35,669 nucleotides of DNA from a virus: positions 1-35,669 of the IMG/VR virus record IMGVR_UViG_3300034200_000391; one strand, 5' to 3'. The notes beneath the pieces were generated by a model. That model was not told where the DNA came from. It saw nothing but the letters and a program-made list of their open reading frames with translations, and searched no databases. Both the position numbers and the translations under genes were made by a program. Below are positions 2,069 to 30,779 of this stretch, piece by piece. Numbering within the stretch: position 1 is the stretch's first letter; the number at the start of each line of letters is the position of its first letter.

Positions 2069-3013
2069 TTAGTTTAGCATAGACATGATAGATTTGTCAA
2101 ACTGGAAGTCCAACTTCTTTATTTCCTCATCAGTCATATCGCCTATGTCTTTATATTGTTTGTCTAATTTAATAACAGAAACACGAGAACCAAGTTTTTC
2201 AAGTATCTTGCTTTTCATGTTTCCTCCTGCCTCATCATTATCTGCAATAACAATAATATTATTGAAATATTTCTGAAGCAATTCTATTTGTATGTTGGAG
2301 ACATTTGCTCCTAGTGTTGCCACTGCTGGAAATCCTATTTGATCAAGTCTAATTGCATCAAAGGAAGACTCTACAATATACACTTTATCAGCAGTCTTTA
2401 CTCTATTAAGATTAAATAATGTTTTTGATTTTGGTAGTCCAGGTGTATTCTTAAACTCTTTACCCTCGATTGATCTACCAACAAAGCCAACTGGTATTCC
2501 ATCTGGGCTATGAACTGGAACTGTAACCATATCTTGTTTTTCTGAATACCCTAATGCAAACTTTGACCAAGAGGTTGTTTCAAGTTTTCTATATTTAAAA
2601 TAATCCTTTGCTCTATCAGATGATAACAAGTTATTGTATAGACGCTTAAGTATTAGTTCATCAAAGGGGACAAAGTCTGGCTTTTTATATAACTGCTTAT
2701 TTACTTCTTGTTCTAGATTTCCTTCTTGCTCCTTGTTCTTGATAAATCGAACAGACTCAAAATAGGTTCTTCCAGAAACATGCATAACTAACTCAACTAA
2801 ATCTGCAACCTTGTGACATGAGAAACAAAAAAATGTTCCGTTGTTCTTATCTACTTCTCCTGCTGGAGTTCTATTGTTTGCGTGGAAAGGACAGAAAATA
2901 ATATAATCAGAATCAACTTCTGATTCAACGTCTAGACCTGCTCCTGTGATAACTCTTTGGATTTGGTCTTTGGTATAAGTATTGCCTTGTTTACGTCTAT
3001 TCCTGCTATCCAT
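2069..3013 (-). CDS. dnaG: DNA primase (DnaG-type: CHC2 zinc finger plus TOPRIM)
   Basis: Makes RNA primers for DNA synthesis. The protein has 314 residues. A CHC2 zinc-binding domain is marked by Cys41, His44, Cys63 and Cys66 (C-x2-H-x18-C-x2-C). The TOPRIM fold follows: VYIVESSFDAI carries the catalytic Glu at 215, VIADNDEAG carries Asp258 and Asp260, and further acidic residues lie at 289-292. At 314 residues it is about half the length of bacterial DnaG (near 580) and ends soon after TOPRIM, so the C-terminal helicase-binding domain is missing. The N-terminus overlaps the preceding gene by 82 bases, but the start at 3013 has a plausible ribosome site (AGGGAGAAAG). It lies two genes after the helicase and directly before the SSB gene. 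Confidence 0.92.
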   Translation of the reverse strand: MDSRNRRKQGNTYTKDQIQRVITGAGLDVESEVDSDYIIFCPFHANNRTPAGEVDKNNGTFFCFSCHKVADLVELVMHVSGRTYFESVRFIKNKEQEGNLEQEVNKQLYKKPDFVPFDELILKRLYNNLLSSDRAKDYFKYRKLETTSWSKFALGYSEKQDMVTVPVHSPDGIPVGFVGRSIEGKEFKNTPGLPKSKTLFNLNRVKTADKVYIVESSFDAIRLDQIGFPAVATLGANVSNIQIELLQKYFNNIIVIADNDEAGGNMKSKILEKLGSRVSVIKLDKQYKDIGDMTDEEIKKLDFQFDKSIMSMLN

Positions 3014-3258
3014 TCGCTTTTCTTTCTCCCTGTGTATACTCCGTGTATTGATAATTCAAAATTAAAACATTTTTTGTTTTCAACATAGTCTATAGTAAAT
3101 ACTGGCTCAATGTCAAATCTTGGCACATAGCCACATAGTCGCATCTCAGATACGACAAGCCTAATGTACTCCCCTTTAAGCCTACCAATAGCAGAGTCAT
3201 CGTGGATTACCCCATCCAGACTAAACTTTTTAATTGGCTTGTGATGATAATTTGCCAT
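2932..3258 (-). CDS. Small hypothetical protein between helicase and primase
   Basis: A protein of 108 residues that I do not recognise. It is soluble-looking, with basic N- and C-termini (MANYHHKPIKK, and KTKSKELSQEQV at the end) and no clear zinc or nucleotide-binding motif. It lies between the helicase and primase genes, so a replication or DNA-binding role is possible but unproven. Two features are odd. Its last 82 bases overlap the primase gene in another frame. And its ATG has no Shine-Dalgarno sequence; instead a TATAAT box ends exactly 6 bases upstream with TTGAGG 17 bases further, so the mRNA should start at the ATG itself (leaderless). Confidence 0.72.
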   Translation of the reverse strand: MANYHHKPIKKFSLDGVIHDDSAIGRLKGEYIRLVVSEMRLCGYVPRFDIEPVFTIDYVENKKCFNFELSIHGVYTGRKKSEWIAGIDVNKAILIPKTKSKELSQEQV

Positions 3259-5569: not shown

Positions 5570-5706
5570 TTGCCCTCCTGAGACTGGTTCGGTGGATTGA
5601 ACATTTTTCTAAATCCACATAAAATACAATAAATTTCTAAAAAACTAGCAGAACTATATTGTCTATCGACAAACATTCTCCCTTTGCATTTAGTACATCT
5701 TAACAT
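5515..5706 (-). CDS. Small zinc-ribbon protein
   Basis: A protein of 63 residues with Cys4, Cys7, Cys27 and Cys30, a C-x2-C-x19-C-x2-C zinc ribbon. Such small proteins often bind nucleic acid or contact RNA polymerase, but the partner here is unknown. It has no clear ribosome site; its ATG overlaps the stop of the last tail gene as TAATG, so it is probably translated by re-initiation. Its 3' end overlaps the HTH gene by 55 bases. Confidence 0.62.
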   Translation of the reverse strand: MLRCTKCKGRMFVDRQYSSASFLEIYCILCGFRKMFNPPNQSQEGKWLLEKEILRAKHTMSHL

Positions 5707-6146
5707 TAATTCGGCAATCCGATAGCAATCAGATTTACACCAATAGTTACATTTCCTCCAGTTTTAAACTTAACTATGCCATCTACTCTAGATGCGGTAA
5801 CTGTTTTTAATACTACGGAGATGTCTGATCCTGCAGTTGTTCCACCAATATTAATAGGTGTTGCAGTTACAATTGGGGCATGCTTAAATCCACTGTATGT
5901 AAGGAAGAATGGTAACTCTCCTCCTACTCCTACTGGAGTATTGTTTGCTACCTCGGCGTAGCCTCCAACCACACGCATTTCAGATGCCCCTAGATCCTTT
6001 TTACCAAAGGAAATTGTGTCAACTGTCACATACTTATTTGATGCAGCAGAAACACTTGTAGTCAAAGAATTAACAGCATCTGCAATTTGATACAGATAAC
6101 TTACATCAATAGGCTGGCCTCTATTAGGCAATGGAATATTTGGCAT
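5706..6146 (-). CDS. Small tail-tip protein with H-type-lectin-like C-terminal half
   Basis: A protein of 146 residues at the end of the tail module. The N-terminal 45 residues look helical (SYLYQIADAVNSLTTSVSAAS). The C-terminal half (about 75-146: FKHAPIVTATPINI, then a repeated strand pattern ending GVNLIAIGLPN) resembles the six-stranded H-type lectin or gp53-like fold found at the ends of phage tail fibres, which usually ends in a similar V-x-W/L-I-A-I-G. It may therefore take part in sugar binding at the cell surface. That is inference from pattern; no database search was done. The start lacks a Shine-Dalgarno sequence and follows a promoter with almost no leader. Confidence 0.6.
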   Translation of the reverse strand: MPNIPLPNRGQPIDVSYLYQIADAVNSLTTSVSAASNKYVTVDTISFGKKDLGASEMRVVGGYAEVANNTPVGVGGELPFFLTYSGFKHAPIVTATPINIGGTTAGSDISVVLKTVTASRVDGIVKFKTGGNVTIGVNLIAIGLPN

Positions 6147-21296: not shown

Positions 21297-21617
21297 TTAT
21301 GGAAGAGTATTGAGAACTGGTGTATCTGAAAGGTTAACTCCAGATGCCTCTTCAATAATCTTGTACACAGTTGGGAGATCCATATTATCTTCCAATGCTG
21401 CCAAATCTTCTGCGAGTTCTGGCTTGTACTGCTTCATTGCAATTTGAATACATTCCATCAGAATGTTCATTGACTTTTCGTTATCTTCTGCTACTGCTGC
21501 TACTCCCTCAAACTTCTTCATAAACGGACGAAGTAGAGAGATCTTTAGTGGACGCACCTTGATCTTTGTGCCATCAATTAGCGTTACTGTCTTTTCTTCA
21601 TGGACTGTTGTTGCCAT
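21297..21617 (-). CDS. Tail assembly chaperone, short form (paralogue of the next gene upstream)
   Basis: A protein of 106 residues that should bind the tape measure during tail assembly, the role of lambda gpG. It aligns along its whole length with the first 95 or so residues of the chaperone encoded upstream: DGT near 16, PLKI near 23-26, M-x-x-C-x-x-[IL]-AM-x-QY-x-P-x-L in the middle, and DLP-x-x-YKI near the end. It lacks the C-terminal T domain of the long form. The start follows AAGGAGG at good spacing. It lies directly before the tape measure gene. I saw no heptanucleotide slip site and no downstream T-type frame, so it is not the first half of a frameshift product. Confidence 0.8.
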   Translation of the reverse strand: MATTVHEEKTVTLIDGTKIKVRPLKISLLRPFMKKFEGVAAVAEDNEKSMNILMECIQIAMKQYKPELAEDLAALEDNMDLPTVYKIIEEASGVNLSDTPVLNTLP

Positions 21618-21642
21618 TTTTCCTCCTTGTAAGGTTGTATCA

Positions 21643-21651
21643 ATTATAGCA
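21643..21651 (-). promoter_or_regulatory. Extended -10 promoter (gene starting at 21617)
   Basis: TGC-TATAAT on the minus strand (TATAAT at 21648-21643). The start point would be near 21636, giving a leader of about 19 bases that contains AAGGAGG. No convincing -35 box was found at 16-18 bases, as is common for extended -10 promoters. Confidence 0.55.
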
Positions 21652-21667: not shown

Positions 21668-22345
21668 TTACGCAGTTATTTCTTCGTAGTCTAGACCATT
21701 TCCTATTCCAAATCCAGCCTCCATTGCACGCTTTCCAGATAGATTTGTTATATCATTGCTTCCCTTGCCCTTATACAGAACTCTATTTTTCATTTCTTCC
21801 CATGCATCATCATTTTTGTCCTTGTCTATATCAACACCCTGGATTGCTGCTAAGAACTTTTTCTCCATATGATCTAGTTCTCTTCTCATAGAGATAATCT
21901 GTAATAGTTCTGGCATTGATATAGATAGTTCTAAGTCTTCGTAATTCTTCCATGCCCCAAGTATGAAGGCTTCAGACTCTAGTTTTAGTAAGTCTAGGCT
22001 ATCCCAAGTGTCTCCATTATCTGTTGCCTGATCTTTGACTGGCTCTTCTTTATTTTGATCAATCTTAATACCAGCACCAATATCAAGAATCTTATAAATT
22101 ATTGGCAGGTCTATCTCATCCTCTAACTCTTCAATAGAATGTGAAAGTCGTGGGCAGTACTGCTGCATTGCTAGTCTTGTACATTCTGTCATTACCGCTA
22201 TAGCCTCTAAATCATTTTTGGCTTTTTTAACAGAAAGAAATACCTCCATTACTTGATGTAGATATTTAATCTTTAATGGGGAGATCATTACAGTGGTTCC
22301 ATCAAAAAATGTTATAGGATGCTCTTGATATATTTTAGTAGCCAT
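21668..22345 (-). CDS. Tail assembly chaperone, long form (G-T-like)
   Basis: A protein of 225 residues. Residues 1-95 are the G-like domain shared with the short chaperone. The remainder is the T-like domain seen in fused chaperones of actinobacteriophages: SLDLLKLESEAFILGAW, KNYEDLELSISMPELLQ, RRELDHMEKKFLAAIQGVD, and a basic-then-acidic end GFGIGNGLDYEEI. In most siphophages this long form arises by programmed frameshifting; here it is a continuous reading frame and the short form has its own gene. It has no Shine-Dalgarno sequence: the ATG stands 6 bases after a TATAAT box, predicting a leaderless mRNA. Confidence 0.84.
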   Translation of the reverse strand: MATKIYQEHPITFFDGTTVMISPLKIKYLHQVMEVFLSVKKAKNDLEAIAVMTECTRLAMQQYCPRLSHSIEELEDEIDLPIIYKILDIGAGIKIDQNKEEPVKDQATDNGDTWDSLDLLKLESEAFILGAWKNYEDLELSISMPELLQIISMRRELDHMEKKFLAAIQGVDIDKDKNDDAWEEMKNRVLYKGKGSNDITNLSGKRAMEAGFGIGNGLDYEEITA

Positions 22346-22380
22346 TAAACCATTATAGCAAAAGAAAACTGCCCAATCAA
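22346..22380 (-). promoter_or_regulatory. Promoter for a leaderless mRNA, overlapping a terminator (gene starting at 22345)
   Basis: TTGATT (22380-22375), a 17-base spacer and TGC-TATAAT (-10 at 22357-22352) lie exactly 6 bases before the ATG at 22345. No ribosome site is present. The -35 box is the first half of the terminator loop, and the spacer contains the terminator's second arm and U-tract. Confidence 0.7.
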
Positions 22381-22397
22381 AAGAAAGGGCAGTTCTC
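22360..22397 (-). terminator. Rho-independent terminator after the major tail gene
   Basis: On the minus strand GAGAACTGCCC (22397-22387) pairs with GGGCAGTTTTC (22374-22364), an 11-base stem with one G-U pair, a 12-base loop and TTTT after it. It begins 19 bases past the stop of the major tail gene. Confidence 0.82.
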
Positions 22398-22416: not shown

Positions 22417-23064
22417 TTATGCAATTCTGCGGTCAACGATCTTACCATACATACCATTATCCAATGGAAGCATACGGAAAGTTACGTCGAACATAGAAGC
22501 AGCATCACGCTTAGCAGATGCAGTTACGCTCTCGATTGAGAGTGCACGATATCCGATGTAGATACGCTCCTTGTTAATTGCTGGATCTCCAGTTCCTGGT
22601 CCTACTGCAACGATTCCTCGCTCCAATGGAACTTCTCCTAGTTCTCCTGAGTTGATGTCGAAAGACTGACTTCCTGCACCAATTCCTGTTGCTGTTGCTA
22701 GATCTGAAAGATCCTCATCCTGTGCTGCAACTGAAACCAAAAGGTTTTCTAGTGTTGCCTCAGCGAATGAAGTCTTAAGTGATACCTGCATACCTTGCTT
22801 GAAAAGACGAGCAACGTCAAGTACCTGGTCAACCTGAACTTCACCGAAGTCAGGCTGGAATGTAAGTTCAATACCATTGCTGGTATATCCTACGTTTGTA
22901 TAATCAGTATCATCTGCTAGTGTATCCTTATAAGATAGTCCTGCTTCAAATCCTGGGAGAGATCCTGAGACATCTCCGATTTGTCCTGATAATGAATCAC
23001 CGTATGTGAACAGCGCTGCTGCTCCCACGATGATGTTATTGGACGAGCCACGTGTATAAGCCAT
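22417..23064 (-). CDS. Major tail tube protein
   Basis: Forms the stacked rings of the tail tube. The protein has 215 residues, with the beta-rich, Gly/Asp-rich make-up and loop pattern usual for this class (VGAAALFTYGDSLSG, YTSNGIELTFQPDFGEVQVDQVLD, SIESVTASAKRDAASMFDVTFRMLP). The region from VDQVLDVARLFKQGMQ to the end matches the conserved core of such proteins. It has its own promoter, a strong ribosome site (AGAGGTGG) and its own terminator, as suits a protein needed in hundreds of copies. It lies between the tail terminator and the tail chaperones, the normal position. Confidence 0.86.
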   Translation of the reverse strand: MAYTRGSSNNIIVGAAALFTYGDSLSGQIGDVSGSLPGFEAGLSYKDTLADDTDYTNVGYTSNGIELTFQPDFGEVQVDQVLDVARLFKQGMQVSLKTSFAEATLENLLVSVAAQDEDLSDLATATGIGAGSQSFDINSGELGEVPLERGIVAVGPGTGDPAINKERIYIGYRALSIESVTASAKRDAASMFDVTFRMLPLDNGMYGKIVDRRIA

Positions 23065-26200: not shown

Positions 26201-27349
26201 TTATGAATCTGATGCAGCGTCAGCGAATGCGATTGCATCCTGCTCTTCCCACTGAATACCGAAGCGAACGAAGACTGTGTATTCTACAGTGTCCTTCTTT
26301 GGCTTGTATTCACGGTTTACAGTGATATCACGCTGGAATCCCCATACACGGTTCTGTGGGAATGTCAAATCGACATATCCTGCAGGATAGTATGGAACTT
26401 CCTGAACATCGACACCTAGAACACGTGTTGTACGTGCTCCACCGAATGTCTGTGCTCCACCGTCAAGGTATGCTTGACGATTTAGCGGTGTTCCGCCAGC
26501 CTGTGATGCGAATGCCTCAGCAACTGCATCTGCAAGAGTTCCGTTATTCTTAACGATTCCCTGGAATGCATCTGTACCAGCATAGAACTTCAAGTTAGAC
26601 TTGATAGCACGATACTTACGTGGCATTGCTGTGATGATGTTCTGCATTACGTCTGTTGTCCAAGCGTCATTAGTGACTGTTACAACTGACTCGTGAGCAT
26701 CTCCGTCTGTCTTTACACGGTTTACGAAGCCTTCCATGATTCCAAGGAATGCGTCGCTACCTGAACCCAAACCATTAATGGCTAGGTCTTCGATATCATT
26801 ACCAAAAGCATTTGTCATCAAACGGACAATGTGATCTTCTAGTGCTGCACCTTCGATGTTATCTTCTAGTGCTTCAGCAGCAACTTCCCAGTCAAGACGA
26901 ATCTTCTTTGTAGTCAATTCAACCTTTGAGAATGTTGCTCCTGCATTTGTGTAATCTCCAACTGCTTGCGCTGCTGCACGAATTACACGCTCTCCGACGT
27001 TTACCTTTTCGAGTTCCATTGTATTGGCTCTCATAGTAACACGACGGCCATCTTGGGCGAGGGTTGTAGCATCCCACACGTAGTCGATAAAACGACGTGC
27101 TTGCTCTGGGCGTAGGATACCTGATCCAGCCTCACCTGAAGGGTTTACTGCGTTTGGACCTGTTGTAACTCCGTTAAGTGAAGTTGGGATATTACCCAAT
27201 ACACCACCGTCAGTGTAGTTACCTGGTACGTTAACTCCTGCATCTGAACCTGATGCAAATGCTCCCTGACCCTGATAGAGTCCTGGTGCTGTTCCGCCAA
27301 GGTTACCTGAGGTACCTGGCTGGTTCTTTTCTATATTTTGTTCCGACAT
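26201..27349 (-). CDS. Major capsid protein (HK97 fold)
   Basis: The protein of 382 residues that builds the head shell. The first 75 residues are Gly/Ser/Asn-rich and probably flexible or removed. The HK97-type body follows: the N-arm (ILRPEQARRFIDYVWDATTLAQDGRRV), E-loop and spine-helix region (VELTTKKIRLDWEVAAEALEDN, IVRLMTNAFGNDIEDLAINGLG), A-domain (NDAWTTDVMQNIITAMPRKYRA, VLGVDVQEVPYYP), and the P-domain end (KPKKDTVEYTVFVRFGIQWEEQDAIAFAD). There is no long delta domain at the N-terminus, which fits a separate scaffold. The ribosome site is AGGAGGTGA, a nine-base match to the 16S rRNA end, and a terminator follows. Confidence 0.93.
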   Translation of the reverse strand: MSEQNIEKNQPGTSGNLGGTAPGLYQGQGAFASGSDAGVNVPGNYTDGGVLGNIPTSLNGVTTGPNAVNPSGEAGSGILRPEQARRFIDYVWDATTLAQDGRRVTMRANTMELEKVNVGERVIRAAAQAVGDYTNAGATFSKVELTTKKIRLDWEVAAEALEDNIEGAALEDHIVRLMTNAFGNDIEDLAINGLGSGSDAFLGIMEGFVNRVKTDGDAHESVVTVTNDAWTTDVMQNIITAMPRKYRAIKSNLKFYAGTDAFQGIVKNNGTLADAVAEAFASQAGGTPLNRQAYLDGGAQTFGGARTTRVLGVDVQEVPYYPAGYVDLTFPQNRVWGFQRDITVNREYKPKKDTVEYTVFVRFGIQWEEQDAIAFADAASDS

Positions 27350-28751: not shown

Positions 28752-30359
28752 CAATATGGACATATCGGGCTCTTCATCAAACTTTCTTCCTTCGCCCTTT
28801 GGATTTCTTCCAGCAACAGTTGATGTGCTATCTGAATTATTATTTGCTCTTTCTGCATCACGTGCACGAGTAGTTGTTGCCTCTGCTGCTTGCTGAGGCT
28901 TCATGTCTAGTGGCTCATCTCCACCTTCTCTTTGTGGCATACCAAGTGCAGAACGAGCCTCATTAGGAAGCATGATCTGATTCTTTACGTATCTTTCAAG
29001 AATTTGTGATTGAGCAATCTCATCTGTCAAGGTTAACTCGTTGAACTTAAACTCAAGGATGTCTGTTCTTTCACGGATAACCTTATTGATCATCTTTTCT
29101 AGTTGTCTTTGAGATGGTCTTGCAACCTGCTCTTTAAATGTTCTATCTTGTGCTAGCGCTGCTGCGATGGATCCTGAATCTCCCCCGCCTAGTTTAGACA
29201 ATGGAACCTGATGTGCAACTAAAATATCATCACGGTTTTGCTTGCGGTATTCCTTAAATGATCCTTCTTGAATTCCATTTTCGATTGGCTCCATCTTAAA
29301 CTCAACCTTGTTTGTATCTGAGTCAGCAGGTAGAGGAATATAGAGTGTTCTATGGTTTTGCCCCTTAAGGCCAGTTTGCAAGAATCTGAACATCTTGTCT
29401 TCTGCATCTGCAGATAACTTTGCACCCTTTAGTGTAACCACATATCTTGGCACAGCCTTATTACTAAAAAAGTCGATATTATATTGTGATGCTAAAGAGT
29501 CTCCATACAAAGAGTTAATAGCAGAAATAATATCAGGAACACCATAAAAAGTGTTTAGTGGAGAGTAAGACTTAAAGTGAATAATTTCATTTGGTCTTCC
29601 ATCTGTTCCAAGTGGGTTATTATTTGTTGCACCAAAATTTCTAAAGTAAACAACCTTATTTCCAATTACTTGAACAAATCCATCTCTCAGTCTTCTGACT
29701 CTAATTGTGGTTGCAGGAATGTGTCCAACGTAGCCAATCTCACCACGAGTAGTTCTTCCAACTTCTAAATATCCATTTCCAGTAGCCTGAAGATCTGTGT
29801 AAACCTTTTCCATCGATGAAGTAAAAGAGTCATCGCTGTTCAAACTTTCTAGCCAATCACGGACTTCAATCTTTGCTCTTTCAATTCTTTTTCTTGCTTT
29901 CTCTGCTGTTCCCTTTTCTGCAGTCTCTAACTTTAGTAATGTTCTTGGGGATATCTCAAAATCATATCCTAGCCCTACAATGTTTTCTACCTTCGCATCA
30001 ATGGCAGCATGGTTTGCAAAAGATGTGTCATAGAAATTTGCAAGTTCGTATAAATTCCATGGTGGTGTGATTACATCAAAAAGACCATAGGCATTATGAT
30101 AGATTACTCCTGGGTTAATTTCTTTTGACTTTGCTCCATTGATTCCAGAACTAACTGCAAGAGAACTATCGATATAGGATTGTGGTGCTTCTGCTTTTAC
30201 AATTCTTGAGGCACGTCTTTTAAAGTTATTGTCCAGTCCGTTAAGATTTTTTAACTCGTCCCAACTTTTAGTAAATGGATCTTGTTTTTGAAATGTGTCG
30301 TCTACCTTTGGCAGATCGTCAATTCTTGCGCCAATTCTATATTCTCTTTCATCGCTCAT
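28749..30359 (-). CDS. Portal protein
   Basis: Forms the ring at the head vertex through which DNA enters and leaves. The protein has 536 residues and follows the PBSX/HK97-like portal pattern: PPWNLYELANFYDTSFANHAAIDAKVENIVG (about 99-129), NGYLEVGRTTRGEIGYVGHIPATTIRVRR (about 193-221), NEIIHFKSYSPLNTFYGVPDIISAINSLYGD (the crown-side conserved block), and FKEYRKQNRDDILVAHQVPLSKLGG, followed by the C-terminal helices. The last 60 residues are charged and low-complexity (TTTRARDAERANNNSDSTSTVAGRN). It starts as a TAATG overlap with the preceding small gene. The terminase that usually precedes the portal is absent from its upstream side. Confidence 0.92.
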   Translation of the reverse strand: MSDEREYRIGARIDDLPKVDDTFQKQDPFTKSWDELKNLNGLDNNFKRRASRIVKAEAPQSYIDSSLAVSSGINGAKSKEINPGVIYHNAYGLFDVITPPWNLYELANFYDTSFANHAAIDAKVENIVGLGYDFEISPRTLLKLETAEKGTAEKARKRIERAKIEVRDWLESLNSDDSFTSSMEKVYTDLQATGNGYLEVGRTTRGEIGYVGHIPATTIRVRRLRDGFVQVIGNKVVYFRNFGATNNNPLGTDGRPNEIIHFKSYSPLNTFYGVPDIISAINSLYGDSLASQYNIDFFSNKAVPRYVVTLKGAKLSADAEDKMFRFLQTGLKGQNHRTLYIPLPADSDTNKVEFKMEPIENGIQEGSFKEYRKQNRDDILVAHQVPLSKLGGGDSGSIAAALAQDRTFKEQVARPSQRQLEKMINKVIRERTDILEFKFNELTLTDEIAQSQILERYVKNQIMLPNEARSALGMPQREGGDEPLDMKPQQAAEATTTRARDAERANNNSDSTSTVAGRNPKGEGRKFDEEPDMSIL

Positions 30360-30763
30360 TAGTCATCACTTCCATATTTCGCTATAGTATCCTTGGCTGC
30401 TTGAACTGCACCAAGGTCATTCATAGAAGGAATAAGACCCTCTGATAATCTTTGCTTTTGCTCAGAGTACTCTTCTTCAGAGATTCTGGTTAATCCTGGA
30501 ACGAAGATGCATTCTCCATCCCCTTCATCTCCATAATACTTTGCAGCCTCTTTAAGTTTTGAAATCTGTAAGATGTCACCCTTCATAGACTCGATATTTA
30601 AGATTGACCCTGTACCGTCAGTAAACCATTTTCCATTAGCCTTTTTGTAAACGTATAGGCCCCACTCATAGTGTTTTTCAATAACTTTTACCTTTGAGTC
30701 GCCAATTTGCCCCTTCATCTTAGGCAATGGCTTGCGCTTTTTCTTTGGATTTTCCATATTCAT
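30359..30763 (-). CDS. Small hypothetical protein before the portal gene
   Basis: A protein of 134 residues, not recognised. It begins MNMENPKKKRKPLPKMKGQ, a basic stretch that probably binds nucleic acid or an acidic partner, followed by a small beta-rich domain (KVIEKHYEWGLYVYKKANGKWFTDG) and an acidic helical end. The frame opens at 30769, but I prefer the second ATG at 30763: the TGG-TATACT box ends 1 base before 30769 and 7 bases before 30763, and neither ATG has a ribosome site, so a leaderless mRNA beginning at 30763 is the simplest reading. The stop overlaps the portal start as TAATG. Confidence 0.66.
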   Translation of the reverse strand: MNMENPKKKRKPLPKMKGQIGDSKVKVIEKHYEWGLYVYKKANGKWFTDGTGSILNIESMKGDILQISKLKEAAKYYGDEGDGECIFVPGLTRISEEEYSEQKQRLSEGLIPSMNDLGAVQAAKDTIAKYGSDD

Positions 30764-30779
30764 AACCATAAGTATACCA
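30764..30779 (-). promoter_or_regulatory. Extended -10 promoter, probably leaderless (gene starting at 30763)
   Basis: TGG-TATACT on the minus strand (TATACT at 30776-30771), 7 bases before the ATG at 30763. The TAA stop of the preceding large gene lies just upstream (30784-30782). No -35 match was found. Confidence 0.5.

Follow-up and report, generated by a model that had tools for sequence, protein, structure and literature searches.

In a large group of uncultured aquatic tailed phages, a terminator-type hairpin, an extended −10 element and a start codon are fused between the major tail protein gene and the gene of the long tail-assembly chaperone, and the two chaperone forms that related phages draw from one frameshifted gene are encoded by two genes. 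It is likely that an insulator-and-restart element, a leaderless long chaperone and a short gene led by a Shine–Dalgarno sequence (SD) together replace the frameshift. The analysis concerns an IMG/VR record of 35.7 kb (hereafter the window, the whole stretch of 35,669 nucleotides), whose tail genes are distant relatives of those of the Stanwilliamsviridae (Streptomyces phages) and of a few Rhodococcus phages. It is from these relatives only that an actinobacterial host may be presumed; a host search by scanning genome contigs returned no relative, and neither Rfam (no match) nor a tRNA search (none) gave a result on the window.

Queries for relatives were the chaperone and several major tail proteins; they gave 368 sequences, the window and annotated phages included. 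Junctions between the major tail gene and the chaperone gene were surveyed at two scales, namely in the nearest 80 loci, which reduce to 46 distinct junctions, and clade-wide, anchored on the −10 hexamer, in 102 distinct junctions. A generic promoter scan of the window gave 52 matches where 51.5 are expected from shuffles and did not single out the element; such scoring being uninformative there, relatives were used instead, and their conservation is the decisive support for the element.

All the features discussed lie on the minus strand. The major tail protein gene (22417–23064, 215 amino acids) belongs to PHROG 2175, with a weak match to the major tail protein family PHROG 885, and its homologues are annotated as major tail proteins in Streptomyces and Rhodococcus phages. 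The long chaperone gene (21668–22345), defined by profiles and relatives, has no SD and carries a G domain (residues 1–98) and a T domain (132–195) in one frame. It is followed by a short chaperone gene of 106 amino acids with a G domain only (21297–21617; profiles and G-domain tree), ahead of which stand a second extended −10 sequence, TGCTATAAT (21643–21651), a promoter that would serve the short gene, and the SD AGGAGG (21622–21627). Relatives are alike in this respect, 91 of 94 distinct cases having an SD of 5 nt or more.

The hairpin (22364–22397) has 11 pairs, formed by the 5′ arm GAGAACTGCCC (22397–22387) and the 3′ arm GGGCAGTTTTC (22374–22364) around the 12-base loop TTTCTTTTGATT (22386–22375). 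On its 3′ side come TTTT (22360–22363), the last T of which doubles as the T of the TG motif, then the extended −10 element TGCTATAAT (22360–22352), GGTTTA and the ATG at 22345. This minus-strand reading bears out the initial annotation as to the 11-base stem, TGC-TATAAT and the ATG six bases further on, but the TTGATT hexamer (22380–22375), there placed at the start of the loop, closes it. The stable GC-rich hairpin and the T tract of an intrinsic terminator are both present. The RNA fold of an 81-nt region reaches −26.9 kcal/mol, where shuffles average −10.8 (z −6.2; none of 200 as low), and this is the sole site on either strand of the window that combines a perfect stem of at least eight pairs, at −10 kcal/mol or below, with at least five T in the next eight bases; six shuffled windows contained no site at −14 kcal/mol or below. 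A generic terminator scan, with a loop limit of 8 bases against the actual 12, misses the element.

The sequence of the hairpin turns over among relatives while its form is retained. Hairpin, T-rich tract, extended −10, short spacer and ATG recur in 46/46 distinct junctions of the nearest loci, and a terminator-type hairpin is kept in nearly all of the 102 clade junctions. Stems differ fully among subgroups yet still pair (GAGAACTGCCC, AGCCCACC, GGCCCAGACC, GAGAGGCTCAATCC and others), and the T tract, seen as well in the position profile, comprises 5–7 T within eight bases 3′ of the stem in 91 of 98 junctions. Since the stem picked for each sequence was its best perfect one, the pair counts cannot serve as an independent test of covariation; the independent control for the clade is provided by shuffles, of which 29 in 2000 are as strong as the clade hairpins (median best −17.3 kcal/mol).

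The promoter motif is constant. TGn-TANAMT is found in all 102 distinct clade junctions, with a T five bases before the hexamer in 99% and a T seven bases before it in 84% of the profile, and the window has the TGn-TATAAT of extended −10 promoters, for which a −35 is not needed. TGnTATAAT occurs seven times in the window, always on the coding strand. No conserved TTGACA-like hexamer occurs 16–18 nt upstream: over the 102 junctions the best match averages 1.96 of 6, and other offsets give 2.05–2.75. Because TGn-TANAMT is universal and a −35 signal is absent in these junctions, the promoter is assigned to the extended −10 type. The compound element that had been proposed from the window thus stands as a fusion of terminator-type hairpin, extended −10 and leaderless-type start, kept in every clade member in which it was looked for, and loses the −35 box in its loop.

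The −10 hexamer lies 6–9 nt before the ATG in 94 of the 102 distinct junctions and 14–15 nt before it in the other 8, an extended −10 at 6–9 nt from the ATG being found in 0.3% of shuffles. The long chaperone always starts with ATG and never has an SD (98–102 distinct clade junctions). With a −10 some 6–9 nt upstream and no SD, this is a leaderless-type start, and the 5′ end of the mRNA is probably at the ATG; in the window, transcription would be expected to begin at or adjoining its A (22343–22346), judging from the 6-nt spacing and from the two classes of −10 spacing at other clade genes. The 14–15 nt spacing of the eight subgroup members corresponds to a leader of about 7 nt. In the L128–L207 group of loci (e.g. 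L136, L138, L144 and L195), this spacing goes with GGG or GGGG between the −10 and the ATG, possibly a very short leader carrying G-rich bases for ribosome binding. Leaderless translation is described as less robust than leadered translation in E. coli and as robust in mycobacteria (PMC4633059), so that leaderless need not mean weak and insulation from the tail protein message can be claimed more safely than low translation.

Starts of this type are found at other genes of these phages. In seven long clade records, TGnTATAMT-N6-ATG occurs at 49 sites against one for the reversed motif, and within each record most TGnTATAMT sites share a strand. A spacing survey over 380 kb from five of these records separates a group with the extended −10 at 5–9 nt from the ATG (47 sites, two with SD-like bases) from a group at 15 nt or more, mostly with an SD, and has no site at 10–12 nt. 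The two-group spacing together with the motif excess indicates that these phages use leaderless-type starts routinely. A terminator hairpin abutting such a start is not routine, being found at only 2 of 52 leaderless-type sites.

Several other places in the window, all on the minus strand, bear on start types. At 30769–30763, TATGGTATACTTATGGTTATG is found, and near-identical sequence recurs in relatives (L369, L376 and L386); as the first ATG of gene 30359–30769 is 1 nt after the −10, the true start is probably the second ATG (30763), which would be leaderless. Two further starts are of the leaderless type, with TGGTATAAT (6164–6144) 9 nt before the ATG of gene 5706–6146 and TATAAT (3270–3256) 6 nt before that of gene 2932–3258. 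At 26201–26107, a G/C-rich hairpin-like stretch, GGGCGGGGGTTAACTCTCCTGCCCCC, follows the putative major capsid gene and precedes TGATATAAT and an AGGAGG leader; this junction resembles a terminator/promoter pair, yet has a leader, unlike the chaperone element. At the window end (1–1400), a frame left open there resembles by eye the beginning of a DNA polymerase III alpha subunit of bacterial type, with its PHP domain.

The loci fall cleanly into two classes when sorted by profiles of the chaperone's G and T domains. In 144 loci of the fused class another G gene comes after the G–T gene; in 8 further loci, several of which are short, just one G was detected. The split class (178 loci) has a single G gene and a T domain read in a different frame, the −1 frame in 80/80 distinct members, and 76 of the 80 have the slippery site CCCAAAY (CCCAAAC or CCCAAAT) in register; the site occurs in none of 106 fused-class members. 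The split form is directly visible in Streptomyces phage Faust. The window has a G-only gene beside a G–T gene that is one open reading frame, with neither a T domain in the −1 frame nor the slippery site. Apparent exceptions to the classes (L160, L189, L204 and L012) are loci that end before the T domain. In the fused class the element always precedes the long chaperone gene, with the short-form gene adjoining, whereas split-class genes have SD leaders, a −10 mostly 22–29 nt before a start that is usually TTG, and mostly 16–33 nt between hairpin and −10. The duplication of the short chaperone and the loss of the frameshift had escaped the initial annotation. In Rhodococcus phage Francesca (L126, 2676–2745), whose chaperone is frameshifted, the annotated chaperone start (2716) is inside a strong hairpin, and an in-frame ATG stands just behind the hairpin, 7 nt after TAGTAT. 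This ATG is the likelier start, possibly a leaderless one, although the start is uncertain, and the arrangement suggests that compact starts lacking an SD may exist in unfused chaperone genes too.

As for origin, the fused class is one clade in the tail protein tree (SH-aLRT 99), which amounts to one change, and in the G-domain tree its two G copies are two clades (97 each). As each copy forms one clade, there was one old duplication. The fusion, the second G gene and the leaderless start changed on one branch, so that their association is a single event and not a repeated one.

The proposed working, read from sequence and comparison, is as follows. RNA polymerase on the major tail message would be released at the hairpin and T tract, and the extended −10, with its TG at the end of the T tract, would restart RNA at the ATG, so that the long (G+T) chaperone would be translated from a leaderless mRNA. 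Read-through RNA should yield little long chaperone, because the gene has no SD, and the dose of the long form would then be governed by the gene's own promoter. The second gene, equipped with an extended −10 of its own and an SD leader, would supply the short (G) chaperone, and the two genes would stand in for the −1 frameshift that lets related phages get both forms from one gene. The more specific proposal, that the clade swapped frameshifting for duplication plus two start types, with a scarce, insulated, leaderless long form and an abundant, SD-led short form whose ratio is set by the type of start, has in our judgement an even chance.

The arrangement could also be a product of genome compaction, terminator and promoter being independent signals brought together, and the leaderless start having no dosing role and being simply common. 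The many leaderless-type starts at other genes speak for this, as does the sister class, whose wider hairpin to −10 distance means that the window form could have arisen through deletion of the spacer and the leader. However, no clade member examined has an SD leader at the long gene, the second gene nearly always keeps its SD (the 91 of 94 above), and the abutting terminator is rare at other leaderless-type sites (the 2 of 52 above); compaction alone is rather unlikely. That the hairpin mainly stabilises the 3′ end of the major tail mRNA or serves in its processing, with the chaperone made from processed read-through RNA, is consistent with the protection of mRNA ends that stable hairpins downstream of abundantly expressed genes can give; it leaves the T tract and the fixed distance from extended −10 to ATG unexplained, and the chaperone gene has no SD, which makes this reading very improbable.

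Still harder to credit is the promoter of the initial annotation, in which a −35 in the loop and the downstream −10 form one promoter and hairpin formation is linked to promoter melting. TTGATT-17-TATAAT is indeed present in the window, but the hexamer is peculiar to its closest kin. By the test that the annotation itself had set, loss of TTGATT in near relatives, the −35 fails: with tail proteins 92–97% identical, L003 (TTCGGATT) and L004–L007 (TTAGGATT) lack it and keep both stem and TATAAT, and no −35 signal emerges over the 102 junctions. The preferred reading remains an insulator-and-restart element feeding a two-gene chaperone system.

Each component has precedents: structural-gene terminators, extended −10 promoters, leaderless genes and two-gene chaperones are all known already. 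With lambda-type gpG/gpGT, made by −1 frameshifting and best represented among annotated relatives by the Stanwilliamsviridae Streptomyces phages, the window clade shares the G and T domains and the place between the major tail and tape measure genes, and the nearest annotated frameshifting phages likewise have a terminator-type hairpin after the major tail gene. These phages use one gene with an SD leader and a frame change, whereas the window clade has a fused G–T gene and a separate G gene without CCCAAAY. T4-like phages, of another group, also make their chaperones from two genes, one short and one long fused, without frameshifting (Vladimirov et al. 2022, cited in PMC10885494), and the passage of PMC10885494 concerned mentions no compound terminator and leaderless start. 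The leaderless mRNAs of Actinobacteria (mycobacteria, PMC4633059) likewise have the start codon at the RNA 5′ end, a promoter directly upstream and no SD, but in the window the promoter abuts the terminator-type hairpin of the upstream gene. In T7 and LUZ100, which have local promoters, a strong terminator after the major capsid gene ends an abundant structural mRNA, as that of the window would; there the signals are separate and the polymerase is another one, and the part of PMC10134795 describing them mentions no leaderless restart. A literature search, most subscription papers lying outside it, gave no account of the fused element or of a tie to frameshift loss, and the arrangement was not found described in work on overlapping phage terminators and promoters or on loss of the chaperone frameshift by duplication.

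The element is an example of terminator, promoter and start codon within 55 bases, and gene starts of these phages can be corrected with the help of its pattern. Normally, the ratio between short and long chaperone is tied to a frameshift that many tailed phages conserve. A clade without the frameshift, beside sisters that have it, allows the importance of this ratio, and other ways of setting it, to be tested. If the reading with two types of start is true, the short:long ratio would here be written in promoters and leaders.
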